Source of the DNA: Thiomicrorhabdus sp.
GTDB lineage: Bacteria > Pseudomonadota > Gammaproteobacteria > Thiomicrospirales > Thiomicrospiraceae
Reading direction: 5' to 3'
Assembly: GCA_015487495.1 (NCBI GenBank)
Contig: WFPP01000074.1
Span: forward strand, 1-61,626
Length of the DNA stretch: 61,626 nt
The notes under the pieces were generated by a model. That model had not been told where the DNA came from. It ran no database searches and saw only the letters and a list, made by a program, of their open reading frames with translations. The first letter of the stretch is position 1. The number at the start of each line of letters is the position of its first letter. This document shows positions 16,546 to 54,930 of the stretch, piece by piece. Made by a program: the position numbers and the translations under genes.

Positions 16546-16814
16546 TTAAGGAATCTCTGAATAAGTCTTTTAATTTCTGGCAACGCCATTTTATTCGCAT
16601 CAAGGAAAATGGCTGAAGCCATGTCTAGACCTTGCAAAGGCATTTAACGCCGAGGCGAATAAAATGGCTAAGCCCCGTAGGGTGAGCCTTCAAGCCTTCC
16701 TCTTCGTTGTTATGCTTCTTGTGAATGGAATAACCATTCCCTGCGAAACAGGCCTAGAATAGGAAGGCTTGAAGACTCACAGAGTTTTAAGGGACTTAAT
16801 CAGAGATTCCTTAA
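16546..16814. repeat. Repeat element family A, copy 1 (269 bp)
   Basis: Inverted ends TTAAGGAATCTCTGAATAAG and its near complement ending at 16814 (CTTAATCAGAGATTCCTTAA). Inside are two further inverted repeats: H2 with arms 16579-16598 and 16655-16674 (ATTTTATTCGC / GCGAATAAAAT core), and H1 with arms 16688-16701 and 16761-16774 (CTTCAAGCCTTCCT / AGGAAGGCTTGAAG, perfect). The strand can therefore fold as an outer stem with two hairpins. The ends resemble the terminal repeats of IS5-type elements as I remember them. No transposase frame is present. The rest of the 604-bp gap 16468-17071 holds only the dksA promoter region. Confidence 0.85.
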
Positions 16815-17071: not shown

Positions 17072-17500
17072 ATGGAATACGACGTCGATTTTATTGAAAA
17101 CTACCCCCCTTACAAGCCTGCTAAAGGTGAAGAATACATGAGTCCAGGTATGCTGGATCACTTTCGACAAAAATTAAACGCATGGAAAATGCAACTCATT
17201 TCCGAAGCCAACAGTACCGTAAATCACCTGCAAAAAGATTCGGAAACGCCAGCAGATCCAAGTGACCGTGCTTCTCAAGAAGAAGAGTTTGCACTTGAGC
17301 TGCGTACTCGAGACCGTGAACGGAAATTGATTGCTAAAATTGATAAATCCCTAAATGCCATCGAAAATGGCGAATATGGTTACTGCAAAATGAGTGGCGA
17401 AGAAATCGGACTGGCACGAATGGAAGCGCGCCCAACGGCTGACTTAACCGTTGAAATGAAGCGGAAACAAGAAATTCGTGAAAAACAAGGGGTTGCATAA
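17072..17500 (+). CDS. dksA: DksA-type RNA polymerase regulator lacking the zinc-finger cysteines
   Basis: DksA binds the RNA polymerase secondary channel and works with ppGpp. The 142 residues align throughout: DPSDRASQEEEFALELRTRD holds the two coiled-coil-tip aspartates, and RERKLIAKIDKSLNAIENGE the second helix. The zinc finger is degenerate. Where the usual protein has C-x2-C-x17-C-x2-C, this one reads Cys, Ser, Thr, Met (GYCKMSGEEIG ... PTADLTVEM) with spacing kept. Only one cysteine remains, as in zinc-independent DksA2 of Pseudomonas, which keeps function when zinc is scarce. AGGAG precedes the ATG. It is the only dksA in the window; another copy may exist elsewhere. Confidence 0.9.
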   Translation: MEYDVDFIENYPPYKPAKGEEYMSPGMLDHFRQKLNAWKMQLISEANSTVNHLQKDSETPADPSDRASQEEEFALELRTRDRERKLIAKIDKSLNAIENGEYGYCKMSGEEIGLARMEARPTADLTVEMKRKQEIREKQGVA

Positions 17501-17514
17501 AGATAAAGAAGTCA

Positions 17515-17634
17515 AACAAGGGGAGCACTTCGTTGTTGGGCTGTTTGGCAATGGCTTGCTATTGTGCCTGCAAAGCAGCCTAGAATCGACTCCCCGTAGA
17601 ACATCAAGCGATTTAATCAGAGCTTCCTTAAAGG
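17515..17634. repeat. Diverged right half of a family A element
   Basis: The order of segments matches copy 1: CTTCGTTGTT, then GCAATGGCTTGCTATT in place of GGAATAACCATTCC, CAGCCTAGAAT, and the end GATTTAATCAGAGCTTCCTTAA. Many substitutions have accumulated. It lies between dksA and the kinase fusion gene. Confidence 0.65.
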
Positions 17635-23882: not shown

Positions 23883-23904
23883 TTTAAGGAAGCTCTGATT
23901 AAGT
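23883..23904. repeat. Single end of family A
   Basis: TTTAAGGAAGCTCTGATTAAG right after the smr stop and before the convergent ftsB stop. No partner end close by. Confidence 0.55.
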
Positions 23905-23933
23905 CTCTTCAGGTTTAAGTTTAAAGCCCTGAT

Positions 23934-25857: not shown

Positions 25858-25880
25858 CTTAAGGAAGCTTTGATTAAATT
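25858..25880. repeat. Single end of family A at the kdsA stop
   Basis: CTTAAGGAAGCTTTGATTAAAT overlaps the last codon and stop of kdsA (25874). On the minus strand the stop TAA is followed at once by TTTAATCAAAGCTTCC. Confidence 0.5.
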
Positions 25881-32660: not shown

Positions 32661-32690
32661 CTTAAGGAAGCTCTGAACAAATCCCTTAAA
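32661..32690. repeat. Single end of family A
   Basis: CTTAAGGAAGCTCTGAACAA followed by ATCCCTTAA directly before the shared terminator. No partner end was found. Confidence 0.5.
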
Positions 32691-34941: not shown

Positions 34942-35048
34942 TTAAAAAAGCTCTAAATAAGTCCATTTTTTACCAGAAACAAGCATGTAAGTCATTGATT
35001 AATAAAATAACAAAAATGTTGATTGGGACCTAATCAGAGATTTCTTAA
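34942..35048. repeat. Short family A element, 107 bp
   Basis: Only the inverted ends: left CTTAAAAAAGCTCTAAATAAGTCC and right GGGACCTAATCAGAGATTTC followed by TTAA, with about 60 bp of A/T-rich filler and no H1 or H2. It lies between the cytochrome c gene and uspA. Confidence 0.65.
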
Positions 35049-43009: not shown

Positions 43010-43447
43010 TTATACCTTTCGTTCTGCACAAAGTAACTCTGCCGATGCAATCATTTTACCATTCACTTTGGTTGTACATTTAAACTTCCAAATACCACGC
43101 TTGTTACCTTGAGTAACCACCTCAAAATCCAGACGATCCCCAGGCACAGCAGGCTGTCTAAAACGGCAATTATCAACTGCGGCCAAATAATACATCGTGC
43201 TTCCATCTGGCTTAACGCCTTGAGAACGAAAAGCCAAAATCCCCGTACATTGGGCCATTCCTTCAATAATCATCACTCCTGGCATAATTGGATGGTTTGG
43301 AAAATGCCCAGTAAATTGCGGCTCATTAAATGTAATATTTTTATAGCCTTTCAACATGACACCCGATTCAAATTCCGTCACTCGATCCACCAACAAAAAA
43401 GGATAGCGGTGTGGTAAATAATCAAAAATTTCTGTGACTTCCATCAT
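43010..43447 (-). CDS. fabZ: 3-hydroxyacyl-ACP dehydratase FabZ
   Basis: Hot-dog enzyme that dehydrates 3-hydroxyacyl-ACP. 145 residues, [16 protein letters not shown] and the catalytic [20 protein letters not shown] with His and Glu. The ATG at 43447 is chosen because GGAC stands before it; the TTG at 43462 is not needed. lpxD, which usually directly precedes fabZ, is split from it by a family A element of 270 bp, so the fabZ transcript may need its own promoter. Confidence 0.96.
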
Positions 43448-43557
43448 GTTATGTTCGTCCAATATAAAAAATGTAATCCATTACAGTACACATACAGGCT
43501 TAACATGCCCCATTGTACATATTTCGTAAAAAAAGCACTAAGAAAACGTTAAGAAGG

Positions 43558-43827
43558 CTTTAGGAACCTCTGAATAAGTCGCTTAAATTCTGTAAGTCTT
43601 CAAGCCTTCCTATTCTAGGCCTGTTTCGCAGGGAATGGTTATTCCATTCACAAGAAGCATAACAACGAAGAGGAAGGCTTGAAGGCTCACCCCACAGGGC
43701 AACGCCATTTTATTCGCCTCAGCGTTAAATGCCTTTGCAAGGTCTAGACATGGCTTCAGTCATTTGCCTTGATGCGAATAAAATGGCGTTGCCAGAAATT
43801 AAGCGACTTATTCAGAGGTTCCTAAAG
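43558..43827. repeat. Repeat element family A, copy 2 (270 bp, near-perfect folding)
   Basis: Opposite orientation to copy 1. The ends are perfect inverted repeats over 29 bases (CTTTAGGAACCTCTGAATAA and onward, ending at 43827). H1 arms 43598-43611 and 43671-43684 are a perfect 14-base pair (CTTCAAGCCTTCCT). H2 arms 43698-43717 and 43774-43793 form a perfect 20-bp pair beginning GGCAACGCCATTTTATTCGC. The right end overlaps the 3' end of lpxD. It fills the lpxD-fabZ gap of about 360 bp. Confidence 0.9.
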
Positions 43828-44845
43828 CATCCAGCTGTTTTTGTAACTGTTTAATTTGTTTCGCCATTTTGTCTAAATTGCGCGCTCGAATACTGTTTTT
43901 TTGCCACTCTGAAACAGGAATGGCTGGAAACCCTGAATAAGTACCTGGTGTCTCAATATTATGTGTCACACCCGATTTGGCTAAAAAATGCACACCATCG
44001 CCAATGGTAATATGCCCTGAGAAACCGACCTGACCTGCCACTGTACAATTTTTACCCAATATTGTACTGCCAGCAAACCCTGTTTGTCCCGCAATAGCAG
44101 AGCCCTGACCAATATGCACATTATGTGCAATGTGCACCATATTATCAATAATACAATTGTCTTCAATAACGGTATCATCAATGGCGCCACGGTCAATGCA
44201 TACATTATTGCCAATTGACACACGACACCCTATCACCACACGACCAATTTGGGGAATTTTAATCCACTCCCCATTATGGTTTGCCCAACCAAAGCCATCA
44301 CCACCAATAACGGAACCTGCTTCAATAATGACCTCATCTCCAATCAGACACCCGTGACGAATGACCACATTTGCACCAATAAGGCAATTTTTTCCAATCG
44401 AAACATTTTCTTCAATAACCGCACCACGACCAATCGAAGTGCCTTCATCAATTGAAGCACCTTCAGCAATAACGGCCTGCGCCATTACCCCCACATTTTG
44501 AGCGATATTGGCAAGCGGATCAATGCTGGAATCGGGATGAACTTGATAAGAGAACTGAACGGGGTTAAGTAATTGAGCAACCAGTGCATAAACATAATAA
44601 GGGTTATCAACTAATAACATCGGTACGGGACATTGCGATTGGTAATCGCGCTTAAGAATAACCGCACCCGCATGTGTTTCTTTTAGATTAGAGAGGTATT
44701 TTTTATCATTTAAAAAAGAGATTTGGGTCGCATTTGCACAATTCAGTGCCGCAACCTGGAGAATATCCACACCCTCTTCAGAACCGATTAACTCAACCTC
44801 AACCCCCTCTTTTTGAAGATAACTCACAATATCACATAACAGCAC
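43808..44845 (-). CDS. lpxD: UDP-3-O-acylglucosamine N-acyltransferase
   Basis: Third acyl step of lipid A synthesis. 345 residues: N-terminal uridine-binding domain, then a beta helix of hexapeptide repeats (VIEENVSIGKNCLIGANVVI), IGGDGFGWANHNGEWIKIPQ, IIDNMVHIAHNVHIGQGSAI with the catalytic His, and QVGFSGHITIGDG. GTG start with AGG nine bases upstream. The last residues, Leu-Gly-Thr-Ser-Glu and the stop, are encoded by the end of the family A element, so the original C-terminus has been changed. Confidence 0.95.
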   Translation of the reverse strand: MLLCDIVSYLQKEGVEVELIGSEEGVDILQVAALNCANATQISFLNDKKYLSNLKETHAGAVILKRDYQSQCPVPMLLVDNPYYVYALVAQLLNPVQFSYQVHPDSSIDPLANIAQNVGVMAQAVIAEGASIDEGTSIGRGAVIEENVSIGKNCLIGANVVIRHGCLIGDEVIIEAGSVIGGDGFGWANHNGEWIKIPQIGRVVIGCRVSIGNNVCIDRGAIDDTVIEDNCIIDNMVHIAHNVHIGQGSAIAGQTGFAGSTILGKNCTVAGQVGFSGHITIGDGVHFLAKSGVTHNIETPGTYSGFPAIPVSEWQKNSIRARNLDKMAKQIKQLQKQLDALGTSE

Positions 44846-44876
44846 AATCAGAACCTAAATACTTTAATTTAAATGG

Positions 44877-45431
44877 TTATTTATTAAATTCAGAACGCTG
44901 CTTTTTACTGACCGAAATTAAATGCGCTAAAACATCATTTGTCACATCAATTCGGTTATTGGTATAAGCAATTCCTTCATACAAAATAAGATCAAACGAC
45001 TGTTGCTCACCAATGGCTTTAATCGCATCATTTACAATATTTTGCAAACTGGCCAATTCTTCATTACGACGTAAATTCAGTAACTCCTGAACATCATTAC
45101 GACGACGTTGAATCTCCCGAGTAAGCATGGTGATCTCACGCTCTTTTGTCACTTTTTGAGAATCACTCATCACCGCTTTGTTTTTTTGATATTGATTCTG
45201 TTTTTGCTCTAATTTATCCGCCAATCCCTTTAATTCAATTTGCTGTGGTTCGAACTCTTTTTTTAACCGGGCATCTGCGGTTTTAGCTTGAGGGGCTTGT
45301 TCTAATAAAAGAGCCACATTAACAACCCCTAACTTAACTGGCACATCAGGTTTTGCAGGTGTCTCGGCCCATGCACTCGTTGCTAAAAAAATAATGGCAA
45401 CTGATAAATAGGTCTTAAGCATTTTTTGCAT
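44877..45431 (-). CDS. skp: Periplasmic chaperone Skp/OmpH
   Basis: Holds unfolded outer-membrane proteins on the way to BamA. 184 residues with a signal peptide (LKTYLSVAIIFLATSAWAET), the LGVVNVALLLEQAPQAKTAD strand and a long charged coiled coil (EPQQIELKGLADKLEQKQNQ and onward), typical of the trimeric jellyfish shape. Located between bamA and lpxD as usual. Confidence 0.93.
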   Translation of the reverse strand: MQKMLKTYLSVAIIFLATSAWAETPAKPDVPVKLGVVNVALLLEQAPQAKTADARLKKEFEPQQIELKGLADKLEQKQNQYQKNKAVMSDSQKVTKEREITMLTREIQRRRNDVQELLNLRRNEELASLQNIVNDAIKAIGEQQSFDLILYEGIAYTNNRIDVTNDVLAHLISVSKKQRSEFNK

Positions 45432-45560
45432 TCACTTTTCCACTTTTATAATCATAATTAAAAAAACTTTTCAGAATTGTACCTTAAAAGTTACCTTCAA
45501 GGATAGAAAGAACGCGATTATTCATTCTTTTGTCACCATTAAATTCTCTTAAAAAAAGCA

Positions 45561-47837
45561 TTAAAACCCTCTTCCCAAGCTAAACTGAAAAGATTGAGTT
45601 TCATCCAGATCATCATAAGAAACAGGTCGAGCCAAACTAAATGCCAAAGGACCAACAGGCGTAATCCATGAAAAGCCCACACCCAAAGCCGATCTAAATT
45701 CACCCAATTCGACTGTATCAATATCTGAAAACACATTTCCTGCATCAAAGAAAAAGCTCATACGAATATTACTGGAATCCTCAATAAAAGGAATGGGTAA
45801 AACCAGCGCCGCCGTTGTTGCAATCTTAACAGCTCCCCCTATTGGACGATCACTGCCATCTATGGCTTTCACATAATTTGCACCTAATGAATTCGGTTCA
45901 AACCCTCTAACCGAACCGATTCCTCCCGCATAAAAATTTTCATAGAAGGGTAAAAAATCCAAATTTCCAAAACCGGCTCCGTAAGACACATTCCCCGTTA
46001 ACTGCAAGGTCAGATTTTCTGAAACAGGCAAAAAGAGACTTTCGCCTAAATACAATTTGTAATAGGATTGTTCAGACGTTCCAGGAATTACCGTCTCTAA
46101 AGAAACTTGCGTTTTATGCCCTTTGGATGGGAAATAAAAAGAGTTGGTTGAGTTATGAGTCCACCCCACTGTTGCAATTGCAGCTGACGAATTTTTACCA
46201 AATGTTGCCACATGTTCATTGCACGCTTTAAACTCACTTGAACACACAAGCTCTTGAGAATCCAGTTTTATACCATACGTTAAACGATCATTCTCGCTTA
46301 ATGGATACCCCAAAGAACTTCTTAGACCAAAATTATTGGTATTAAAATCAGCAACTCGTAACTGCTTTGCATCAATTTCACTTAAATAAAAGCCCGCGCC
46401 CAAACTCACACCATCAGAAGTAAAATAGGGATTGGTTAACCCAATATCCGCTGTTTTCCTAGACGCACTGGTTGAGACATTAAAATCAAGCTTGTTACCA
46501 CTTCCAATAAAGTTACGCTCCGATATGCCAATATTAAAACTGACACCATCCACTTGGGAAATCCCTACACCGGCACTAAAGGAGCCTGTTGATTGTTCGG
46601 TCACTCGGACAATCAAGTCCACCTGATCACGGCTCACCCGCTTGGTTTCAATGTCCGCCATTTTAAAGAATCCCAAACGGGTTAAACGTGATTTTGATTG
46701 ACGAACCAATTTTAAAGAATACGGTGAGCTTTCCAATTGCCGCATCTCTCTTCGGATGACATAATCACGAGTTCGCGTATTTCCTTCAATGACAACACGC
46801 CGAATATAAACTCGGCTTTTAGGCTCAAAATAAAATCGCAATACAATGGTTTTTTTCTCTTCATCCAATTCCGTTGCCGGTTTCAGTTCTGCAAAAGCAT
46901 ACCCTTCTTCACTTAAACGGTCACGTACTGAAGTGACCGCTTCAATAACTTTAGAGCGAGAAAAAACATCACCAATATTAAGTGCCATCAACTTTTTCAG
47001 TTGACTATGATCCAATATCGTTTCACCCACAAACTGAACATCGGAAATAGTATATTGATCGCCCTCTTTAATATTAATAGTGGTAAACACTCGGGTTTTA
47101 TCGGTAGACAAACTCACCTGATGAGATAGCACTTCAAACTTGGCAAACCCCTGATCCATGTAATAAGACTTAAGTGTTTCAATATCTCCTTGAAGCTGCA
47201 TTTTAGAATAATCATCTCCAACAGACATTTGCAATAAAGACTTCAAACGCTGATCTGAATAAACCTGATTCCCCACTAATGTAATACGTCCAATCGTAGC
47301 AGGTTCCCCTTCAATAATTGAGACTTTTAATCCCACACGATTACGTGGCAACGCTTCACTTGAAATCTCAATTTCTGCCGCATAATAGCCTTGATTTTGA
47401 TAACGACGTTTTAAATCAAGTACCACCCGTTCCAGTTCAACTTGATTATAAATTCGGCCTTTTTTAAGTCCCAAAGAGTCCAAGGCATCATTCAGTACCT
47501 CACTGTCAATAAGCTTATTTCCTTCAATCGTCACCTCCGCAATAGAAGGTCGCTCAACCACCTTTACAACCAGGGTATTCGCTCCTCTTTTATAAAGTGC
47601 GACATCCTTAAAAAAACCTGTTTTATATAAACTCTGTATACTTTTTTGTGATAATTCCCGATTTAAATACTCTCCTTTAGCCACCGACAAATAAGTACTG
47701 ATGGTTGAAAAATCAATACGGTTAGCCCCTTCCACTTCAATATTTTTAACCATAAACGCTTGCGCTAAACCTGGAAGCCATAATAAGCCAGCCATTGCAC
47801 ATGAAATTGCTGTTTTTTTAAACTGAATTTGTTTCAT
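45561..47837 (-). CDS. bamA: Outer-membrane protein assembly factor BamA
   Basis: Central channel of the BAM complex. 758 residues: signal peptide (AISCAMAGLLWLPGLAQAF), five POTRA domains (about residues 27-425; for example VKNIEVEGANRIDFSTISTY), then a 16-strand barrel with the conserved loop motif GIGSVRGFEPNSLG and a last strand ending in Phe (QSFQFSLGRGF). The ATG overlaps the rseP stop (TGATATG). Confidence 0.97.
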   Translation of the reverse strand: MKQIQFKKTAISCAMAGLLWLPGLAQAFMVKNIEVEGANRIDFSTISTYLSVAKGEYLNRELSQKSIQSLYKTGFFKDVALYKRGANTLVVKVVERPSIAEVTIEGNKLIDSEVLNDALDSLGLKKGRIYNQVELERVVLDLKRRYQNQGYYAAEIEISSEALPRNRVGLKVSIIEGEPATIGRITLVGNQVYSDQRLKSLLQMSVGDDYSKMQLQGDIETLKSYYMDQGFAKFEVLSHQVSLSTDKTRVFTTINIKEGDQYTISDVQFVGETILDHSQLKKLMALNIGDVFSRSKVIEAVTSVRDRLSEEGYAFAELKPATELDEEKKTIVLRFYFEPKSRVYIRRVVIEGNTRTRDYVIRREMRQLESSPYSLKLVRQSKSRLTRLGFFKMADIETKRVSRDQVDLIVRVTEQSTGSFSAGVGISQVDGVSFNIGISERNFIGSGNKLDFNVSTSASRKTADIGLTNPYFTSDGVSLGAGFYLSEIDAKQLRVADFNTNNFGLRSSLGYPLSENDRLTYGIKLDSQELVCSSEFKACNEHVATFGKNSSAAIATVGWTHNSTNSFYFPSKGHKTQVSLETVIPGTSEQSYYKLYLGESLFLPVSENLTLQLTGNVSYGAGFGNLDFLPFYENFYAGGIGSVRGFEPNSLGANYVKAIDGSDRPIGGAVKIATTAALVLPIPFIEDSSNIRMSFFFDAGNVFSDIDTVELGEFRSALGVGFSWITPVGPLAFSLARPVSYDDLDETQSFQFSLGRGF

Positions 47838-47838
47838 A

Positions 47839-49230
47839 TCAACCATTCGAAATTCTTAACACATCATTAAACAGAGCAACAAGCGTCAACCCTATAATTA
47901 AAACCACACCGATCCGTTGACCGACGTCCATTGCTTGAGGACTAACAGGAGACCCCTTAATTATTTCAATCAAGTAATATACCAAATGCCCGCCATCTAA
48001 TACAGGAATTGGCAATAAGTTTAAAATACCAATACTCAGGCTAATCAAACCTAATAAGCTTAAAAAAGTGATGAAACCTGATTGCATCGCCTGACCAGAA
48101 AACTGGGCAATACTAATTGGGCCTGATAAATGTTGTAAACTTACATCCCCAAAAAACATTCTTTGTATCATAATCAAACTCATTTGCAACAGTTCAATAG
48201 TGTGTATGCCGCCTTTCTCCAAGGCCTCCAAAAGGCCATACCGTGTAACAGAAGAGTAAGAAGAGCGCGTTTCTGGAGTAATAAAAGCCCCTATGCCCAT
48301 TTTTCCAACCACCTCTCCAGAAGGTTTTTTAGACTCCGACAACGACACCATCGTGGTATAACGTGCTCCCTCCCTAACATACACAATTGAAACAAGCTCA
48401 TTAGGCCGAGACTGAATTTCCCGAACCAAATCTTGCCACTGAGCAATGGGGGTATCATCAAAAAAAACAATTTTATCACCCGATAAAAGCCCCGCTTTTT
48501 CTGCCGCACCACCCGGTACAACCGTCCCTAGAATAGAAGGCAACGGCATTTGAAAAGGCTTAAAACCAAGCAACCTTAACCAGTTCTGCTTAGGTTGATT
48601 TAAATCAAGTTCCTCTAAAGCAATTGACCGTAAAGGAATACGCTCTCCAGAATCAAGGTGTTCAATCTCAATATAAAGACTCTCTTCATGATGCACCTTG
48701 GCTTTTAAAATAGCTTGATGCACAGATCGCCAGGTTGATACGGAATCGTCACCCACTTGAACAACAGACCAAACTCCCGAAAGAGACTGAAAAAACCCTT
48801 CTGGCAGAGCTTGTTCAACTGGGCTTCCTTGAGTAACTTCATTAAAAACAGGCTTAAAACCAGACACCCCAATCAGGTACATAACCGAAAATACCAACCA
48901 TGCAAACACCAAGTTAATCAAGGGGCCTGCTGCAACAACAGCAAAACGCTTATAAACACTTTGATGATTAAATGCATAAGGCAACAGCGCTTTAGGAACA
49001 GGGCCTTCAGATTCATCAATAAAACGAACATACCCTCCAAAAGGGATTACACCAATTTTAAAACAAGTCTCTTTTCCCTGTTTTTCATAAAGGCTTTTAC
49101 CAAACCCTATGGAAAAAACGTTTACCCGAATATGAAACCAGCGAGCGACTTGATAGTGTCCCCACTCATGAATGGCAATGACAATCCCCATGACTACAAT
49201 AAAGCCCAAAACAGACCATAAAACAGTCAC
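47839..49230 (-). CDS. rseP: Site-2 zinc metalloprotease RseP
   Basis: Intramembrane protease that cuts the anti-sigma factor RseA and signal-peptide remnants. 463 residues: HEWGH in the first helix (VIAIHEWGHYQVARWF) for zinc, a PDZ region at about 220-300 (LGTVVPGGAAEKAGLLSGDK), and PIPVLDGGHLVYYLIEI as the second zinc motif. GTG start directly after the cdsA stop (TAAGTG). rseA is not in the window. Confidence 0.96.
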   Translation of the reverse strand: MTVLWSVLGFIVVMGIVIAIHEWGHYQVARWFHIRVNVFSIGFGKSLYEKQGKETCFKIGVIPFGGYVRFIDESEGPVPKALLPYAFNHQSVYKRFAVVAAGPLINLVFAWLVFSVMYLIGVSGFKPVFNEVTQGSPVEQALPEGFFQSLSGVWSVVQVGDDSVSTWRSVHQAILKAKVHHEESLYIEIEHLDSGERIPLRSIALEELDLNQPKQNWLRLLGFKPFQMPLPSILGTVVPGGAAEKAGLLSGDKIVFFDDTPIAQWQDLVREIQSRPNELVSIVYVREGARYTTMVSLSESKKPSGEVVGKMGIGAFITPETRSSYSSVTRYGLLEALEKGGIHTIELLQMSLIMIQRMFFGDVSLQHLSGPISIAQFSGQAMQSGFITFLSLLGLISLSIGILNLLPIPVLDGGHLVYYLIEIIKGSPVSPQAMDVGQRIGVVLIIGLTLVALFNDVLRISNG

Positions 49231-50043
49231 TTACAGCATACTCCCAAAATGCCATAAAAGGTACATCATTGGCAGGGCAATCAACAAACTGTCGATACGA
49301 TCCAATACACCACCATGACCAGGTAACAGATGACTACTGTCCTTCACACCTGCTTGACGCTTTAAAACACTTTCAAACAGGTCTCCCAGTACTGAAAAAA
49401 GAGCAATAAAGGCTAAAACCAATGCAAACAGCCAAGCAGAGACACTCAATTCAACCTGTACCCATTGCACACTTAACCATGCCACAATAAAAGCCAAAAG
49501 AACGCCACCCCAAACCCCTTCCCATGTTTTACCTGGACTCACATAGGGAGCCAATTTGGTTTTTCCAAAACGTTTTCCACTGAAATAAGCTCCCGTATCA
49601 ATAGCCCAAATAACCAATAAACTCAATAAGATAACCTGTGGTGAAAACGAACTCCTAAAATGAATCAATGCCACCGTAAACACCACAATCGATAATACAC
49701 CCGACATTAAAATAAACCCAGCAGAACGTGGGCCTTTTAGTGCCTTACTTTGCTGATAACGAAATACCACGCTCATTAATAAAATGCTTTCAATCACCGT
49801 TAAGAAGACAAGCCCCTGAACAGACAACATCAACAGACTTATCCAGCTTAGTAACAATACCAGCAAGGCAAAGGCTATTTTTTGCCATACCTTCGTTAAG
49901 CGTGCCAATCCGGCCCACTCCCAAGCTGCAATAAAGCCAACCAATAATACAATCCACTGCCAAATCAATTCAGTTGACTTAAACAACGCCACGGCTGCCA
50001 AAACAGCCAAAACCACGGCTGTTATTACTCGTTGTTTCAACAT
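49231..50043 (-). CDS. cdsA: Phosphatidate cytidylyltransferase
   Basis: Makes CDP-diacylglycerol for phospholipids. 270 residues with about eight membrane helices, AIDTGAYFSGKRFGKTKLAP, SPGKTWEGVWGG and the C-terminal signature SVLGDLFESVLKRQAGVKDS with LPGHGGVLDRIDSL. Directly coupled to uppS upstream and rseP downstream. Confidence 0.96.
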   Translation of the reverse strand: MLKQRVITAVVLAVLAAVALFKSTELIWQWIVLLVGFIAAWEWAGLARLTKVWQKIAFALLVLLLSWISLLMLSVQGLVFLTVIESILLMSVVFRYQQSKALKGPRSAGFILMSGVLSIVVFTVALIHFRSSFSPQVILLSLLVIWAIDTGAYFSGKRFGKTKLAPYVSPGKTWEGVWGGVLLAFIVAWLSVQWVQVELSVSAWLFALVLAFIALFSVLGDLFESVLKRQAGVKDSSHLLPGHGGVLDRIDSLLIALPMMYLLWHFGSML

Positions 50044-50775
50044 TTACTTAGCAACCTGTTCGCTTGTTTTACCAAAACGACGCTCTCGTTGTGAAAAAGA
50101 GGCAATGGCTTTATCAAGGCTAGCCTCATCAAAATCAGGCCACAAATCTTCTGTAAAATAAAATTCTGCATACGCCATCTGCCAAATTAAAAAATTACTG
50201 ATTCGTTGTTCTCCGCCTGTGCGAATCAGTAAATCCACATCTGGTAATGCATTCAAAGCAATATATTGACTTACATCCTCTTCTGTCATATCTAATACTG
50301 ACTTTTCTGGGTGCACCAACTGCCACTGTTTCACCGCCTCCAAAATATCCCAACGCCCACCATAGTTTGCCGCAATAGATAAAACCAATCCTGTATTATC
50401 ACGTGTCATCGATTCCGCTAAAAGAATATGCTCTTGAATTTCCTTACTAAAAGCAGAACGGTCACCCACAATCAATAACCGGACATTATTTTCATTAAGT
50501 CTGGACACCTCTTTCTGTAACGCTTTTAAAAACAACCCCATTAATTTATTTACTTCATCAGGTGGCCGACGCCAGTTTTCAGTACTAAAAGCAAACAACG
50601 TTAATGCTTTAATACCAAGCATAGAGCAGTGTGCGACTAAACGCTTTACCGACTTAAGCCCTTTCTGGTGACCGGCAAACCGAGGTAAAAACCGTTTTTT
50701 AGCCCAACGGCCATTGCCATCCATAATAATAGCAATGTGTTGTGGTTGAATAATTTGGTGGGATTCTTGAGACAA
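50044..50775 (-). CDS. uppS: Undecaprenyl diphosphate synthase
   Basis: cis-Prenyl transferase that makes the C55 carrier for peptidoglycan. 243 residues: IAIIMDGNGRWAKKRFLPRF, GIKALTLFAFSTENWRRP, and DLLIRTGGEQRISNFLIWQM with YAEFYFTEDLWPDF. First gene of the uppS-cdsA-rseP-bamA-skp-lpxD run. Between it and frr, where dxr lies in many relatives, there is only a family A element. Confidence 0.97.
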   Translation of the reverse strand: MSQESHQIIQPQHIAIIMDGNGRWAKKRFLPRFAGHQKGLKSVKRLVAHCSMLGIKALTLFAFSTENWRRPPDEVNKLMGLFLKALQKEVSRLNENNVRLLIVGDRSAFSKEIQEHILLAESMTRDNTGLVLSIAANYGGRWDILEAVKQWQLVHPEKSVLDMTEEDVSQYIALNALPDVDLLIRTGGEQRISNFLIWQMAYAEFYFTEDLWPDFDEASLDKAIASFSQRERRFGKTSEQVAK

Positions 50776-50985
50776 AACAAACCTCTAATCAAATAAAAAA
50801 ACGAGCACCTGGTGTGTACCACATACCAAGTACTCAAAACAAAAAACGGCTCAAACAAACCTGAAACCCCCTCAGATTAACTTGAACCGTTTTATTTAAA
50901 GCAACAAAAACGAGCATCCAAAATAAAACCCGTTAATTATGCCGTAATTGCGTAAAAATAGCGATGTAATTTAACACCCCAACCC

Positions 50986-51245
50986 TTAAGGAACCTCTGA
51001 ATAAGTCTCTTAAAATTCTGTGAATCTTCAAGCCTTCCTATTCTAGGCCTGTTTCGCAAGGAATGGTTATTCCATTCACAAGAAGCATAACAACGAAGAG
51101 GAAGGCTTGAAGGCACACCCTACGGGGCTTAGCCATTTTATTCGCCTCGGCGTTAAATGCCTTTGCAAGGTCTAGGACATGGCTTCAGTCATTTGCCTTG
51201 ATGCGAATAAAATGGCGTTGCCAGAAATTAAGGAACTTAGTTATT
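50986..51245. repeat. Repeat element family A, copy 3
   Basis: Same orientation as copy 2. Left end TTAAGGAACCTCTGAATAAG, then H1 and H2. The right end is altered (AAATTAAGGAACTTAGTTA instead of the usual AAATTAAGCGACTTATTCAG), so the outer stem is broken. H2 arms pair with three mismatches, as in copy 1. The 518-bp gap 50776-51293 (uppS-frr) otherwise holds nothing I can name. Confidence 0.85.
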
Positions 51246-51293
51246 TTTTACTCGTGATCGTACACTGCAAAGCCCTCAAATCAGGGTAAAATA

Positions 51294-51851
51294 TTAAATA
51301 TCCATCAAACTCGCTTCTTTTTCCGCCAAAGCCGCATCCACTTTTTTAATTGCTTCATCAGTTAATTTCTGAATCTGGTCATCAGACTGATGCGCTTCAT
51401 CCTCAGTAATCTCTTTTTCTTTTAAAAGAGACTTTACTTCTCCATTCGCATCACGCCTAATATTACGAATTGCAACACGGGCTTGTTCTGCCTCCGCCCG
51501 TGCAATCTTAATAAACTCCTTACGGCGCTCTTCTGTTAAAGGTGGCATCGGAATACGCATCAAATTTCCAACCGTCACTGGGTTAATGCCTAAATCGGAA
51601 GTCATAATGGCTTTTTCAATCACCGCCACCATCGGTTGCTCCCAAGGCTGAACCGTTAAGGTACGAGAATCTTCCAAATTAATATTTGCCACCTGACTGA
51701 TTGGCACTGAAGATCCATAATAATCAACTGTAATAGAGTCCAAAATACTTGGATGAGCACGCCCTGTACGAATCTTGGCAAAATTCACTTCCAGGTTTTC
51801 AAACGATTTTTGCATTCTCACTTTTGCATCTTCACGAATTTCATCTAACAT
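51294..51851 (-). CDS. frr: Ribosome recycling factor
   Basis: Splits the post-termination ribosome with EF-G. 185 residues of standard length: [20 protein letters not shown] with the RTGRA loop, [53 protein letters not shown] and [20 protein letters not shown]. Two bases after pyrH. Confidence 0.98.
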
Positions 51852-51853
51852 TC

Positions 51854-52573
51854 TTATTCTCCTAAGCCTACCAAGGTGCCTTCATCATCACCCTTTACAA
51901 TTCTAATAACCGCATTATCTTTAAACATATCAAAAACACGAATGGGCATACCATGATCTCGACATAACACAAATGCTGTCATATCCATAACCTGTAAATT
52001 TTTTTGAATCACTTCATCATAAGACAAAAACGGATAGCGGGTTGCGTTGCTGTCTTTCATCGGGTCGGCAGTATAAATACCATCCACCTTCGTTGCTTTC
52101 AAAACAATTTCGGCACCAATTTCAATGCCTCTCAATGCCGCCGCCGTATCTGTCGTAAAAAAAGGGCTACCTGTCCCCGCAGCAAACACCAATACCTCAC
52201 CACCTGCCAACTGTTTCTTAACATTATTGGCATGAAACCCTGTCGAAACCCCTTCAATCGACATCGCAGATAATACTTGGGACTTCATCCCCATGCTTTC
52301 AATCACATCACGAAGCGCCAGTGCATTAATAACCGTTGCCATCATACCCATATGATCGCCTGTTGTACGCTGAATACCCGAACCTTGAATTTGTGCACCG
52401 CGAAAAATATTCCCCCCCCCAACAACAATGCCAACTTCAACACCTAAATCACGCAATTCTTTTACCTGAGAGACAACCGATTTTAAGGTTTCAGCATCCA
52501 GACCAAACTCTCCTGCCCCCATTAAGGCTTCACCACTAAACTTTAATAAAATGCGTTTATATTTAAGTGCCAT
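51854..52573 (-). CDS. pyrH: UMP kinase
   Basis: Phosphorylates UMP to UDP; hexamer regulated by GTP and UTP. 239 residues: [73 protein letters not shown] and [21 protein letters not shown] nine-C run (52412-52420) encodes the Gly-Gly-Gly of the substrate-binding loop. The gap to tsf (52574-52996) is wider than usual and contains a family B element. Confidence 0.98.
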
Positions 52574-52607
52574 CTCAGCGTACCCTTACGTTATCCAAAC
52601 AACCATA

Positions 52608-52797
52608 AAAAGACTTTTACACAAAACAACATACGAATAAAAAAAGAAAAAACACCTGATTTTTATGTACCTCTAAAAGCACTTTCTATAGCGTAACAAC
52701 TTGAAAATAGCGCGATTCTCTGCATCATCCACCTTAATCAATCAAATCGTTATCTCTTCTTATCTTCACACCCCGTTTTATCGTACAAAAGCCTTAT
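52608..52797. repeat. Repeat element family B, about 190 bp
   Basis: Left end AAAAGACTTTTACACAAAAC and the A-rich stretch that follows; right end TTATCGTACAAAAGCCTTAT, inverted with differences. It separates tsf from pyrH. After it, at 52836-52857, there is a family A-like end (AAGGAAGCGCGGATTAAATC), and a longer imperfect inverted repeat (52801-52815 against 52874-52890, AAAATTTTGCAATTA). Confidence 0.6.
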
Positions 52798-52930
52798 GAA
52801 AAAAATTTTGCAATTAAAAAACATTCTTAAACCCAAGGAAGCGCGGATTAAATCGCTTGGATTCTGGGAATCAAGACACTATTCTAATTGCAAAAAATTT
52901 TCTTATTCAATCTTTTTTAAACATTTACAT

Positions 52931-52984
52931 ACAAAAAAGCCATAGCCTGCTTACTTTAAAAAAAGTAAAGCAACACTATGGCTC
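52931..52984 (-). terminator. Terminator after tsf
   Basis: On the minus strand AGCCATAG, inner GCTTTAC-like stem with an A/T loop, CTATGGCT and then TTTTTTG. Strong hairpin followed by a T-run directly after the tsf stop. Confidence 0.82.
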
Positions 52985-52996
52985 AATAATCAAAAA

Positions 52997-53881
52997 TTAA
53001 CCCGTAACCGCTTTCGCAGCCAAGGCAACTTCTTCCGCAAAATCCGTCTCTTCAACTTCTATTCCTGCACCAACTTCCATGCGAATAAACGCTGTTACCG
53101 TTGCACCATTTTCTTTCAATAGCTTCTCAATAGTAATATCTGGGTTTTTAACAAAAGATTGACCAACCAATGTAATTTCCTGCAAATACTTACGCATACG
53201 ACCATCAATCATTTTTTCAATGATTTCAGCAGGTTTACCACTTTCTTGCGCTTGTTCAATTTGGAACTTACGCTCTTTTTCAAGCATTCCTTGATCCACT
53301 TCTTCAGCAGTAATAGCCGATGGATTAACCGCCGCAATGTGCATGGCAACATCACGAGCCAACGCTTCATCCCCACCTTCCATCGCAACTACAACCCCAA
53401 TTTTTTCACCATGCTGATATTGGCCAATCAAACCTTTCGATTCAATTTTTTGTACAAAACGCAACGCCATGTTCTCACCAATACGCGCTATCATTTCACG
53501 GCGTGTCAAATCCACTGTTTGCCCAGATGCCATCGTTAATCCCATAATGGTATCCACATCCGTGGTATCTGCTGCCAACGCCAATGCCACAATCTCATTT
53601 GCAAACGCTTTAAACTCGTCACCTTTTGCAACAAAATCCGTTTCGCAATTTACTTCTGCAATCATGCCTGACTTTTTATCTTCTGAAACGGCAATGGCAA
53701 CCACGCCTTCTGCTGCAACACGACCGGCTTTTTTATCCGCGCCCGCCATACCTTTTTTACGAAGAAACTCAATCGCCGCATCCATATCACCTCCTGTTTC
53801 AGAAAGTGCTTTTTTACAATCCATCATCCCTGCACCCGTTGCTTGACGCAGTTCTTTCACCATAGAAGCTGTAATAGCCAT
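52997..53881 (-). CDS. tsf: Elongation factor Ts
   Basis: Nucleotide exchange factor of EF-Tu. 294 residues: ITASMVKELRQATGAGMMDC with CKKAL, GDMDAAIEFLRKKG, and NCETDFVAKGDEFKAF. The start at 53881 is the usual MAITASMV; GAGGAA precedes it by six bases. Downstream of rpsB, after an intergenic hairpin. Confidence 0.98.
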   Translation of the reverse strand: MAITASMVKELRQATGAGMMDCKKALSETGGDMDAAIEFLRKKGMAGADKKAGRVAAEGVVAIAVSEDKKSGMIAEVNCETDFVAKGDEFKAFANEIVALALAADTTDVDTIMGLTMASGQTVDLTRREMIARIGENMALRFVQKIESKGLIGQYQHGEKIGVVVAMEGGDEALARDVAMHIAAVNPSAITAEEVDQGMLEKERKFQIEQAQESGKPAEIIEKMIDGRMRKYLQEITLVGQSFVKNPDITIEKLLKENGATVTAFIRMEVGAGIEVEETDFAEEVALAAKAVTG

Positions 53882-53981
53882 ACTTAATTCCTCATTATCC
53901 AAACTTTGTATTTTTTACCCCCCCTCACTATATACATACAACAGCCAAGAGAAGAGGGCTTATAACCCTAATTCTTTCAAC

Positions 53982-54015
53982 AGAAAAGCGGGTTTGGCAA
54001 CAAACCCACTTTTCT
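53982..54015 (-). terminator. Hairpin in the rpsB-tsf gap (attenuator)
   Basis: On the minus strand AGAAAAGTGGGTTTG, loop TTGC, CAAACCCGCTTTTCT: fifteen pairs with one wobble. The T-rich part is inside the stem, so it may reduce rather than stop transcription into tsf. A similar partial terminator lies at this place in E. coli. Confidence 0.6.
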
Positions 54016-54035
54016 ATCCAAGTTAACTTAGGGAA

Positions 54036-54776
54036 TTACTTAGCTGATTTCTCCTCAGCTTCTACAAAATCATCCCCTTCAACACCCGTAGTGATGGTTG
54101 CCTTACCTTCAAGAACCGCATCCGCTGCAGAAGTTAGGTATAACGTAATCGCACGAATGGCATCATCGTTACCAGGAATCACATAATCAATTCCACGCGG
54201 ATCATTATTTGTATCTACCACACCAATAACCGGAATACCCAGATTTTTAGCTTCTTGAATGGCAATTTTTTCATTTCCAGTATCGATAATAAAAATCGCA
54301 TCTGGCATGGCACGCATATCTTTAATTCCACCTAAAGACAGCTCTAGTTTTGTTTTTTCACGAGTACGTGTTAACGCTTCTCTTTTTGTGATTTTTTCAA
54401 ACGTACCATCTTTCTCCATTGCTTCAAGTTCTTTCAAACGCTTAATAGACTGTTTGATTGTCTTGAAGTTTGTCAACATACCACCTAACCAACGGTAGTC
54501 AACATACGGCATACCGCAGCGTTTTGCTTCTTGAGCCACAAGCTCACGCGCTGCTTTTTTTGTTCCAACAAATAATACTTTACCTTTATTTGCGGCTATG
54601 CCACCAATCATGTTCAATGCGTCATTAAACATTGGCAGTGTTTTTTCTAAGTTAATAATATGAATTTTGTTACGCGCACCAAAGATGTACTCAGCCATCT
54701 TGGGGTTCCAATAACGAGTTTGATGTCCGAAATGTACACCCGCTTCTAGCATTTCACGCATGGTCACTTTTGCCAT
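54036..54776 (-). CDS. rpsB: Ribosomal protein S2
   Basis: 246-residue protein of the small subunit: [75 protein letters not shown] and a C-terminal [21 protein letters not shown] at 54776 with GGAGA eight bases upstream; the longer frame belongs to the leader. First gene of rpsB-tsf. Confidence 0.98.
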
Positions 54777-54930
54777 GATATTCTCCATTTTTTTTGGGTT
54801 AAGCCTCCGTCTACCCCATAAGACGAACCAAAAAAAGCCATTTTTTCTCGCTTTATTCAGCACCCCGTTTTATGTGTCGGTAAACGTGTGGATTTTTTGT
54901 TAGAATTCCTCTCAACAGAAAGGCGCGGCA
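54777..54930 (-). promoter_or_regulatory. rpsB leader, possible S2 autoregulatory site
   Basis: Untranslated leader with two GC-richer blocks in an A/T-rich surrounding: CGGGGTGCTGAATAAAGCGA (54847-54867 region) and GGTAGACGGAGGCTTAACCC (54796-54815). Blocks like these are conserved in gammaproteobacterial rpsB leaders, where S2 represses its own operon. I judged the similarity from memory, so this is tentative. Confidence 0.4.

Follow-up and report, generated by a model that had tools for sequence, protein, structure and literature searches.

The window, i.e., the whole stretch of 61,626 nucleotides analyzed here, is contig C74 of a 2.04 Mb Thiomicrorhabdus sp. draft genome and holds three full copies of a repeated element of 260-270 bp with terminal inverted repeats. 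All three are intergenic, and two of them (copies 2 and 3) lie within an apparent essential operon. The surrounding minus-strand gene run (43010-54863) encodes, based on Pfam, ribosome recycling factor, undecaprenyl diphosphate synthase, LpxD and FabA/FabZ-like proteins, and presumably also includes pyrH, tsf and rpsB, which were assigned from gene order. The run looks like a conserved, essential one. An Rfam search of the window places a t44 leader at 54798-54908. In an E. coli record, an ERIC copy (L391) is located just after rpsB, and two of the window copies sit in the same gene neighbourhood.

Copies and fold of the element

Three covariance models were used: R1 describes the whole element and was built from alignment A3, R2 describes the hairpin unit and R3 describes ERIC. 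The limits of the three window copies are those defined by the model, and the E-values of R1 and R2 are rough and stem from a shortened calibration. The features are the following:

43563..43822 (+): full element, copy 2; R1 265.1 bits, E 7.5e-62
43558..43586 (+): left arm of the 29-bp outer stem of copy 2, holding the left terminal inverted repeat; from the folds
43599..43683 (+): hairpin unit H1 of copy 2, functional polarity on +; R2 79.0 bits on +, 17.7 on -
43684..43703 (no strand): centre of copy 2, a CCC-NNN-GGG mini hairpin separating H1 from H2; from the sequence
43704..43787 (-): hairpin unit H2 of copy 2, inverted relative of H1, functional polarity on -; R2 65.6 bits
43799..43827 (+): right arm of the 29-bp outer stem of copy 2, holding the right terminal inverted repeat; from the folds
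16550..16810 (-): full element, copy 1; R1 275.7 bits, E 2.3e-64; flanks TTAA / TTAA
16689..16773 (-): H1 of copy 1; R2 79.0 bits
16585..16668 (+): H2 of copy 1; R2 58.5 bits
50990..51251 (+): element copy 3, right end diverged; R1 250.2 bits, E 2.6e-58
51027..51111 (+): H1 of copy 3; R2 78.6 bits
51132..51216 (-): H2 of copy 3; R2 68.2 bits
17471..17627 (-): partial copy with one hairpin (17516-17599) and one end; R1 E 2.5e-7, R2 E 0.025
34946..35044 (no strand): possible degenerate short copy, ends only; two facing ends with 4/18 mismatches each
23888..23905 (+): lone end, 2/18 mismatches
32666..32683 (+): lone end, 3/18 mismatches

The ends of copy 2 read GGAACCTCTGAATAAGTC and are flanked by TTTA / TAAA. 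Refolding and recounting confirmed the three-way junction that a sequence-only reading had drawn for this copy, with a 29-bp outer stem and two long internal hairpins. The predicted fold has a free energy of -85.2 kcal/mol as DNA (z -15.3) and of -141.5 kcal/mol as RNA (z -15.4), and in either case none of 200 shuffles is as stable. The same reading had listed three long copies in given orientations with an ends-H1-H2-ends layout, all of which the R1 and R2 matches bear out. The three-way junction is the fold of all three full copies. Its diverged half copy is real as well (17471-17627): the stem sequences differ while the loop is similar. For the short copy near 34942, the facing ends are present, but each carries 4/18 mismatches and the stretch has no match to R1 (E<=0.01) or R2 (E<=0.1), leaving a weak possibility. 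Two of the four proposed single ends stand (23888 and 32666), whereas those at 25863 and 58487 have five mismatches to the 18-nt end, a level at which shuffled windows give about four matches each. A search of the whole window with R1 and R2 returned the known copies only.

The absence of a coding frame also holds, as copy 2 is touched only by two short ORFs (32 and 41 aa) and by the 3' end of the adjacent ORF. The latter is an lpxD-like ORF (43808-44845, -) that overlaps the right arm of copy 2. Its last codons and stop lie within the right end of the copy (43808-43827), so that its C-terminus seems to derive from the insertion. A genome-wide blastn search with copy 2, which the sequence-only reading had proposed, found 40 separate places in the own draft genome after merging of overlapping matches, 13 of which span at least 248 of the 270 query bases. 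The description of H2 had to be reversed. It had been held that copy 2 is matched in H2 while copies 1 and 3 deviate, yet TTA stands opposite GTT at the base of H2 in 13 of 14 aligned copies (12 of 13 from the own genome and one from a congener). Copy 2 alone carries CAACGCC there, which pairs perfectly. Since copy 2 is the odd one out, the suggested arm-to-arm conversion in copies 1 and 3 is unsupported.

Ends, target-site duplications and mobilizers

The flanks were compared for 72 distinct copies with GG..CC-type (IS5-type) ends from many genomes. The flanking 4-mers are identical in 25 of these copies, against 5.9 expected when the right flanks are dealt randomly, while the next four bases are identical in none (0/72); they are therefore target-site duplications. 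The most common 4-mers are CTAA, TTAG, CTAG and TTAA. Other end classes show other duplication lengths. Copies ending in GTCGACTC have 6-bp TANNTA duplications, which are exact in 7/9 cases (1.7 after shuffling). Monomers, i.e., elements with one hairpin, with GAGACCTTTGCACGAG ends have 5-bp duplications that are exact in 17/27 cases (0.9 after shuffling), the test comprising those 27 of 33 monomer loci with both ends recognized; where this is the case, monomers measure 159-179 bp. By eye, the core-bearing ends TAGTACAGCAACCA, TAGTGTAGTGCGTCACTC and TATACCCAAGCCACCTCAAG are flanked by TA, and further end types around the core are GGGTCTGTTGACGTTT, GCAGGCTGTTGTAAAAC and TATACCAAGTCTCG. The core thus occurs as a dimer or a monomer, behind GGAACC-type and several other end types. 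The element is a non-autonomous, MITE-like transposable element.

The target-site duplications support the earlier proposal of a mobile element that lacks a gene of its own and is served by a transposase acting from elsewhere. So do IS5-type insertion sequences (IS) of an element-bearing Neptuniibacter MAG (L063, 1158 bp; L068, 1165 bp), which have matching ends and an open PF01609 transposase frame. An IS5-type IS of Motiliproteus (L065, 930 bp) has a looser end match. Because its ends are of the same kind as those of PF01609 IS, the window element is regarded as non-autonomous with IS5-like ends. The proposed search for an IS with the same ends gave similar ends in the Neptuniibacter MAG and no PF01609 in the own genome. 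Among the eight genomes searched, it was not found in four (the own draft genome, the one-contig congener G024, G019 and G042), and the own genome and G024 are rich in the element. A cognate IS5-type IS is present in G041 and, in looser form, in G040, while the examined PF01609 loci of G016 have other ends. L064 and further G016 loci are a 1320-bp PF01609 IS with ends ACCAGGCCTGGCACTAGTG, unrelated to the element, and eight G016 matches score alike.

A second transposase type occurs in the own genome, where locus L221 (C21:979-1416) marks a 1187-bp IS630-type element with ends CTAGTGTAGTGTAACGA, of end type TAGTGTAGTG. The DDE_3 (IS630) domain was found in the own genome only, with none in the nine others of the ten searched. 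In the 99%-complete genome G118, 16 end pairs lie 269-272 bp apart, eight are shorter and two are spaced by 2.6 and 2.9 kb; no pair 0.6-2.5 kb apart and no DDE_3 domain was found there. Mobilizers are often missing or unrecognized. In a model search (default filters) of 13 transposase loci, the only match is a neighbouring monomer outside the IS (L084). As these loci hold no core inside the IS, a plain deletion derivative, which the sequence-only reading had considered, is unlikely, yet no IS with exactly the ends of the window copies was found.

The hairpin core

The core consists of two inverted copies of one hairpin unit of about 85 nt. The profile of the element matches both strands, often over the full length, because its left half recurs in related, inverted form as the right half. 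Alignment A3 contains 27 full copies from 11 genomes of the genus (the own genome included), Hydrogenovibrio, Motiliproteus and Neptuniibacter, and compensatory changes occur at 55 of the 67 predicted pairs. Alignment A7 contains 60 units, namely H1 and, after reverse complementation, H2, plus two single-hairpin units; A3, A7 and A8 are MAFFT alignments, while A4-A6 were fitted to R1. The 60 units share one design, in which a 12-pair stem is followed by loop A, an inner helix, then another loop and an apical helix. In A7, 27 of 28 pairs change on both sides, and 95.6% of the cells are paired, compared to 37.6-42.0% when the pairing is slid by 1-3 columns. Covariation correspondingly amounts to 0.958 versus 0.096-0.165. 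The conserved fold proposed from the sequence, for which a covariance model had been suggested, is thus backed by strong covariation.

Across the 60 units, the stems differ almost everywhere and loop A is fixed. This asymmetric internal loop is nearly invariant and reads CNAGGC opposite AACRNNG. Its 5' side is C (60/60), N, A (59), G (59), G (59) and C (60), and its 3' side A (60/60), A (60), C (59), R, two variable positions and G (60/60), so that five loop positions are fixed in all units.

The fold also carries information on the strand. Non-Watson-Crick pairs were counted on the + strand in alignments A4-A6, in which 136 best-strand rows were reduced to 132 distinct ones and then to 51 representatives with <75% identity over paired positions, rows with >20 gapped pairs being excluded. 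One position per hairpin, at which the commonest state is non-standard (for H2, T·G in 46/51), was left out. H1 has 126 G·T and 9 A·C pairs, whereas H2 has 10 G·T and 56 A·C pairs. These opposite signs are not expected from the score-chosen orientation, because that should favour G·T in both hairpins. H1 therefore seems to be selected as the + strand and H2 as the - strand, each hairpin being kept as a single folded strand that runs inward from its own end, with the same polarity in both. Together, the compensatory changes and the opposite G·T/A·C asymmetry indicate that the folded core is under strand-specific selection. The mini hairpins of the centre have a TNC loop (C(UNCG)G in RNA) in 64 of 117 elements and its complement GNA in 31, the elements not being thinned for relatedness. 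This preference favours structure, without favouring RNA over DNA.

The core is widespread. Within the genus, R1 has matches in 28 of 32 genomes at E<=1e-3 and in 20 of 32 at E<=1e-10 (own included); in the remaining eight of the 28, the best E-value is only 4e-8 to 6e-7. At E<=1e-8, and with five candidates scored per genome, R1 matches 92 of 369 sampled genomes of the class (74 of 271 genera) and 71 of 398 sampled genomes of the phylum, the own genome included in both. Of the phylum matches, 33 are outside the class, 31 of them in one family. A survey of the Motiliproteus family, with 20 candidates per genome, gave matches in 37 of 99 genomes. A pattern scan of named genomes yielded Motiliproteus coralliicola, a Neptuniibacter MAG, Thiomicrorhabdus cannonii, Hydrogenovibrio sp. 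JE_KL2 and a Thiotrichales MAG. Named records with the core further include replicons of Azotobacter chroococcum, Pseudomonas aeruginosa, Halomonas, Pseudoalteromonas and Photobacterium, with no feature listed beneath the matches in a gene table that is incomplete. In dozens of loci, inspection by eye showed full-length matches carrying the same loop. The same core is thus present across the class and, beyond it, in other genomes of the phylum, while ends and duplication lengths differ by lineage. Two core copies of G321 (L174 and L175) have flanks that, by eye, are common in inverted orientation, as if they lay within a larger repeat. None of the 4227 Rfam models, at gathering or lax thresholds, falls on the element in the window or in 20 further loci. 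Blastn with a window copy gave no match in plasmids and phages, and one exact pattern gave none in viral contigs.

In monomers, the hairpin lies on one strand only, which allows a comparison with chromosomal orientation. In the congener G016, there are 90 R2 matches, none of which has another within 250 bp and one of which is within a full element. With crude ORF calls, the hairpin strand agrees with that of tandem genes ten times and opposes it nine times (29 loci). A set of 28 loci with a single R2 match from several genomes, six of them shared with the G016 set and some being dimers whose second hairpin is below the threshold, gave 8 versus 7, likewise with crude ORF calls. Relative to fork direction, 40-42 versus 48-50 of the 90 G016 matches were counted, with the dnaA-bearing contig C2 taken as chromosomal. 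As there is no strand bias relative to genes or replication, the function seems to be independent of chromosomal orientation. The absent bias speaks against a one-orientation effect on neighbouring mRNAs.

Interpretation and comparison with known systems

We consider it probable that the element is a non-coding transposon with a conserved folded hairpin core behind exchangeable ends, the core being a portable ligand. The ends would be used in trans by DDE transposases, IS5-like ones for the window copies and IS630-like and other ones elsewhere. The hairpin may serve as a putative ligand of some factor that these bacteria have in common. It would act as RNA rather than as single-stranded DNA, so that an RNA-level host ligand is favoured. 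Such a cargo could help the element to spread or persist, and the core would survive changes of transposase because carrying it has this benefit. In the dimer, whichever side a polymerase comes from, the first hairpin that it meets would have the right polarity. The foremost candidate partner is RNase III or some other protein of RNA processing, with recognition of single-stranded DNA as the main rival. Correia repeats and, less surely, ERIC repeats may be members. The most far-reaching version, in which the CNAGGC/AACRNNG hairpin is a transferable transposon cargo across Pseudomonadota, recognized as folded RNA or single-stranded DNA by one conserved host factor and forming the heart of both ERIC and Correia, is put forward tentatively, as a bold proposal that may well not hold.

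A role of the hairpins as single-stranded DNA, whether at forks, during transformation or in a transposition intermediate, e.g., as a primosome or single-strand-specific enzyme site, is the less likely reading, although it retains some weight. DNA hairpins also accommodate G·T pairs, the symmetric placement fits a fork arriving from either side, and the CGNAG loop, which is stable in DNA, is the complement of the common TNC loop of the centre (31 and 64 of 117). Nonetheless, the 90 G016 matches show no replication strand bias, and the duplications of 4, 5 and 6 bp, like the TA flanks seen by eye, point to double-strand DDE transposition. Regulation of neighbouring genes in cis has been proposed for both Correia and ERIC, and the element could likewise be a transcription or mRNA-decay signal kept for host regulation. 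The intergenic position of the three window copies, two of them in an apparent essential operon, would agree with this, as would the binding of Correia elements in mRNA by RNase III described in PMC2649163. Yet the lack of hairpin-strand bias relative to tandem genes and the many copies with exact target duplications, as in young insertions, make such a role improbable.

Ordinary MITEs, i.e., lineage-specific IS deletion derivatives whose arms are copied or converted together and whose likeness between lineages reflects horizontal transfer, would account for the terminal repeats, the target-site duplications and the matching IS in some genomes. Copy 2 illustrates that an arm may become matched to its counterpart, and the parental IS is missing from most examined genomes, which makes their interiors uncomparable. 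This origin is nevertheless distinctly improbable: the 13 transposase loci have no core inside the IS, the core is kept between elements with unrelated ends, and the stems vary nearly everywhere around a fixed loop. Arm conversion predicts perfect palindromes rather than fixed mismatched loops or an opposite G·T/A·C bias. Finally, we give hardly any credence to an artefact in which the covariance model gathers any long palindrome. The shortened calibration behind the E-values and the eight weakly matched genus genomes (best E 4e-8 to 6e-7) would suit it, but R1 and R2 find only known copies in the window, the dozens of loci read by eye are full-length with the same loop, and a hairpin on the wrong strand scores 17.7 instead of 79 bits.

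MITEs are classified by their ends and are usually regarded as decayed IS whose interiors mean nothing. In the present element, it is the interior that is conserved, whereas the ends can be exchanged. If the most far-reaching version above is true, the hairpin would raise the success of whatever transposase ends flank the core, and classical 'species-specific' MITEs would form one superfamily defined by core rather than ends. ERIC has been used for decades for fingerprints and Correia repeats have been studied as regulators, both without a known purpose; a shared core would offer a common explanation. The putative 85-nt ligand with its invariant loop could also be bait for finding its partner. 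No description of a core common to MITEs with different ends was found in searches of open-access literature. Passages of PMC10969869, PMC4853749, PMC2267715 (a survey of stem-loop families in 40 genomes), PMC2229807 and PMC2649163 mention no such shared core, and six sequence strings gave no match in papers.

Among the known systems, IS5-group IS and MITEs resemble the element in their GGAACCTGCGAAYAAGTYC-kind ends and 4-bp YTAR-like duplications. Unlike these IS, the element has no transposase and no shared interior was seen; moreover, the same core also occurs behind other ends. IS630 (Tc1/mariner-like) elements compare through the TA-flanked TAGTGTAGTG-kind ends of some core lineages, an end type that the own genome's IS630 has too, whereas the window copies have IS5-like ends instead. 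REPIN/BIME elements, with tagged REPs of 20-40 nt and a RAYT transposase, are inverted pairs of imperfect hairpins, intergenic and present in many copies. The inverted hairpin pair and the many copies are alike, but here the hairpins are longer, the loop is another one, and terminal inverted repeats with target duplications are present. Integron attC sites have conserved R boxes in their outer stem. An attC site was ruled out, as the outer stem of the unit is not conserved: each of its 12 pairs varies in both partners. CIR repeats of Caulobacter are, according to PMC2229807, small intergenic repeats as well, with two arms kept between species, yet they measure about 110 bp and have a GANTC motif in the loop.

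Correia repeats (CREE, NEMIS) of Neisseria are similarly small and non-coding with inverted ends, which begin with TATAG, and seem to share the loop register of the core. One gonococcal copy scores 14.9 bits with R2 (E 0.017-0.019) in the same register (CAAGGCG ... CAACGC), although it fails a simple test for the loop plus closing pairs. A Cupriavidus metallidurans element provides a link, being 85% identical to the Correia core and apex over 53 bases (E 3e-6) and scoring 36 bits with R2 (E 4e-8). In contrast to the window element, Correia is a monomer with another apex and a marginal R2 score when taken alone, and its inverted repeat (TATAGTGGATTAA) is absent from the window copies, which end in GGAACCTCTGAATAAGTC. 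Membership of Correia among the core-bearing elements is likely. According to PMC2649163, longer Correia forms carry an IHF site and may bind IHF, the stem-loops in mRNA bind RNase III and the mobilizing mechanism is described as undetermined. The gonococcal and E. coli records NZ_CP119140.1 (2.17 Mb) and NZ_OL790696.1 (4.80 Mb) are filed as plasmids, while their size suggests chromosomes.

ERIC (IRU, RU-1) of enterobacteria is a 127-bp monomer that, unlike the core unit, has a short stem 2 and a long apical arm. R2 with default filters matched none of 14 ERIC loci, and R3, run on 44 loci that bear the core or a related repeat, found nothing at E<=1, which makes the link a weak one. With filters off, six of the eight ERIC loci given (out of the 14) match R2 in one register. 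Their scores fall from 15.7 to 7.1 bits and their E-values rise from 0.01 to 2.1, while chance matches of that search reach up to 12.3 bits. The AAGGC/AACGC loop with closing pairs is present in 8 of 14 ERIC loci versus 2-7% of their shuffles, and AAGGCG is invariant in 13/13 aligned ERICs. The ERIC end (TATACCC...CTTCAAG.TGC) also resembles the TATACCC ends of three core-bearing families, with 0-1 of 2000 shuffles being as similar. On balance, we lean slightly towards including ERIC among the core-bearing elements.
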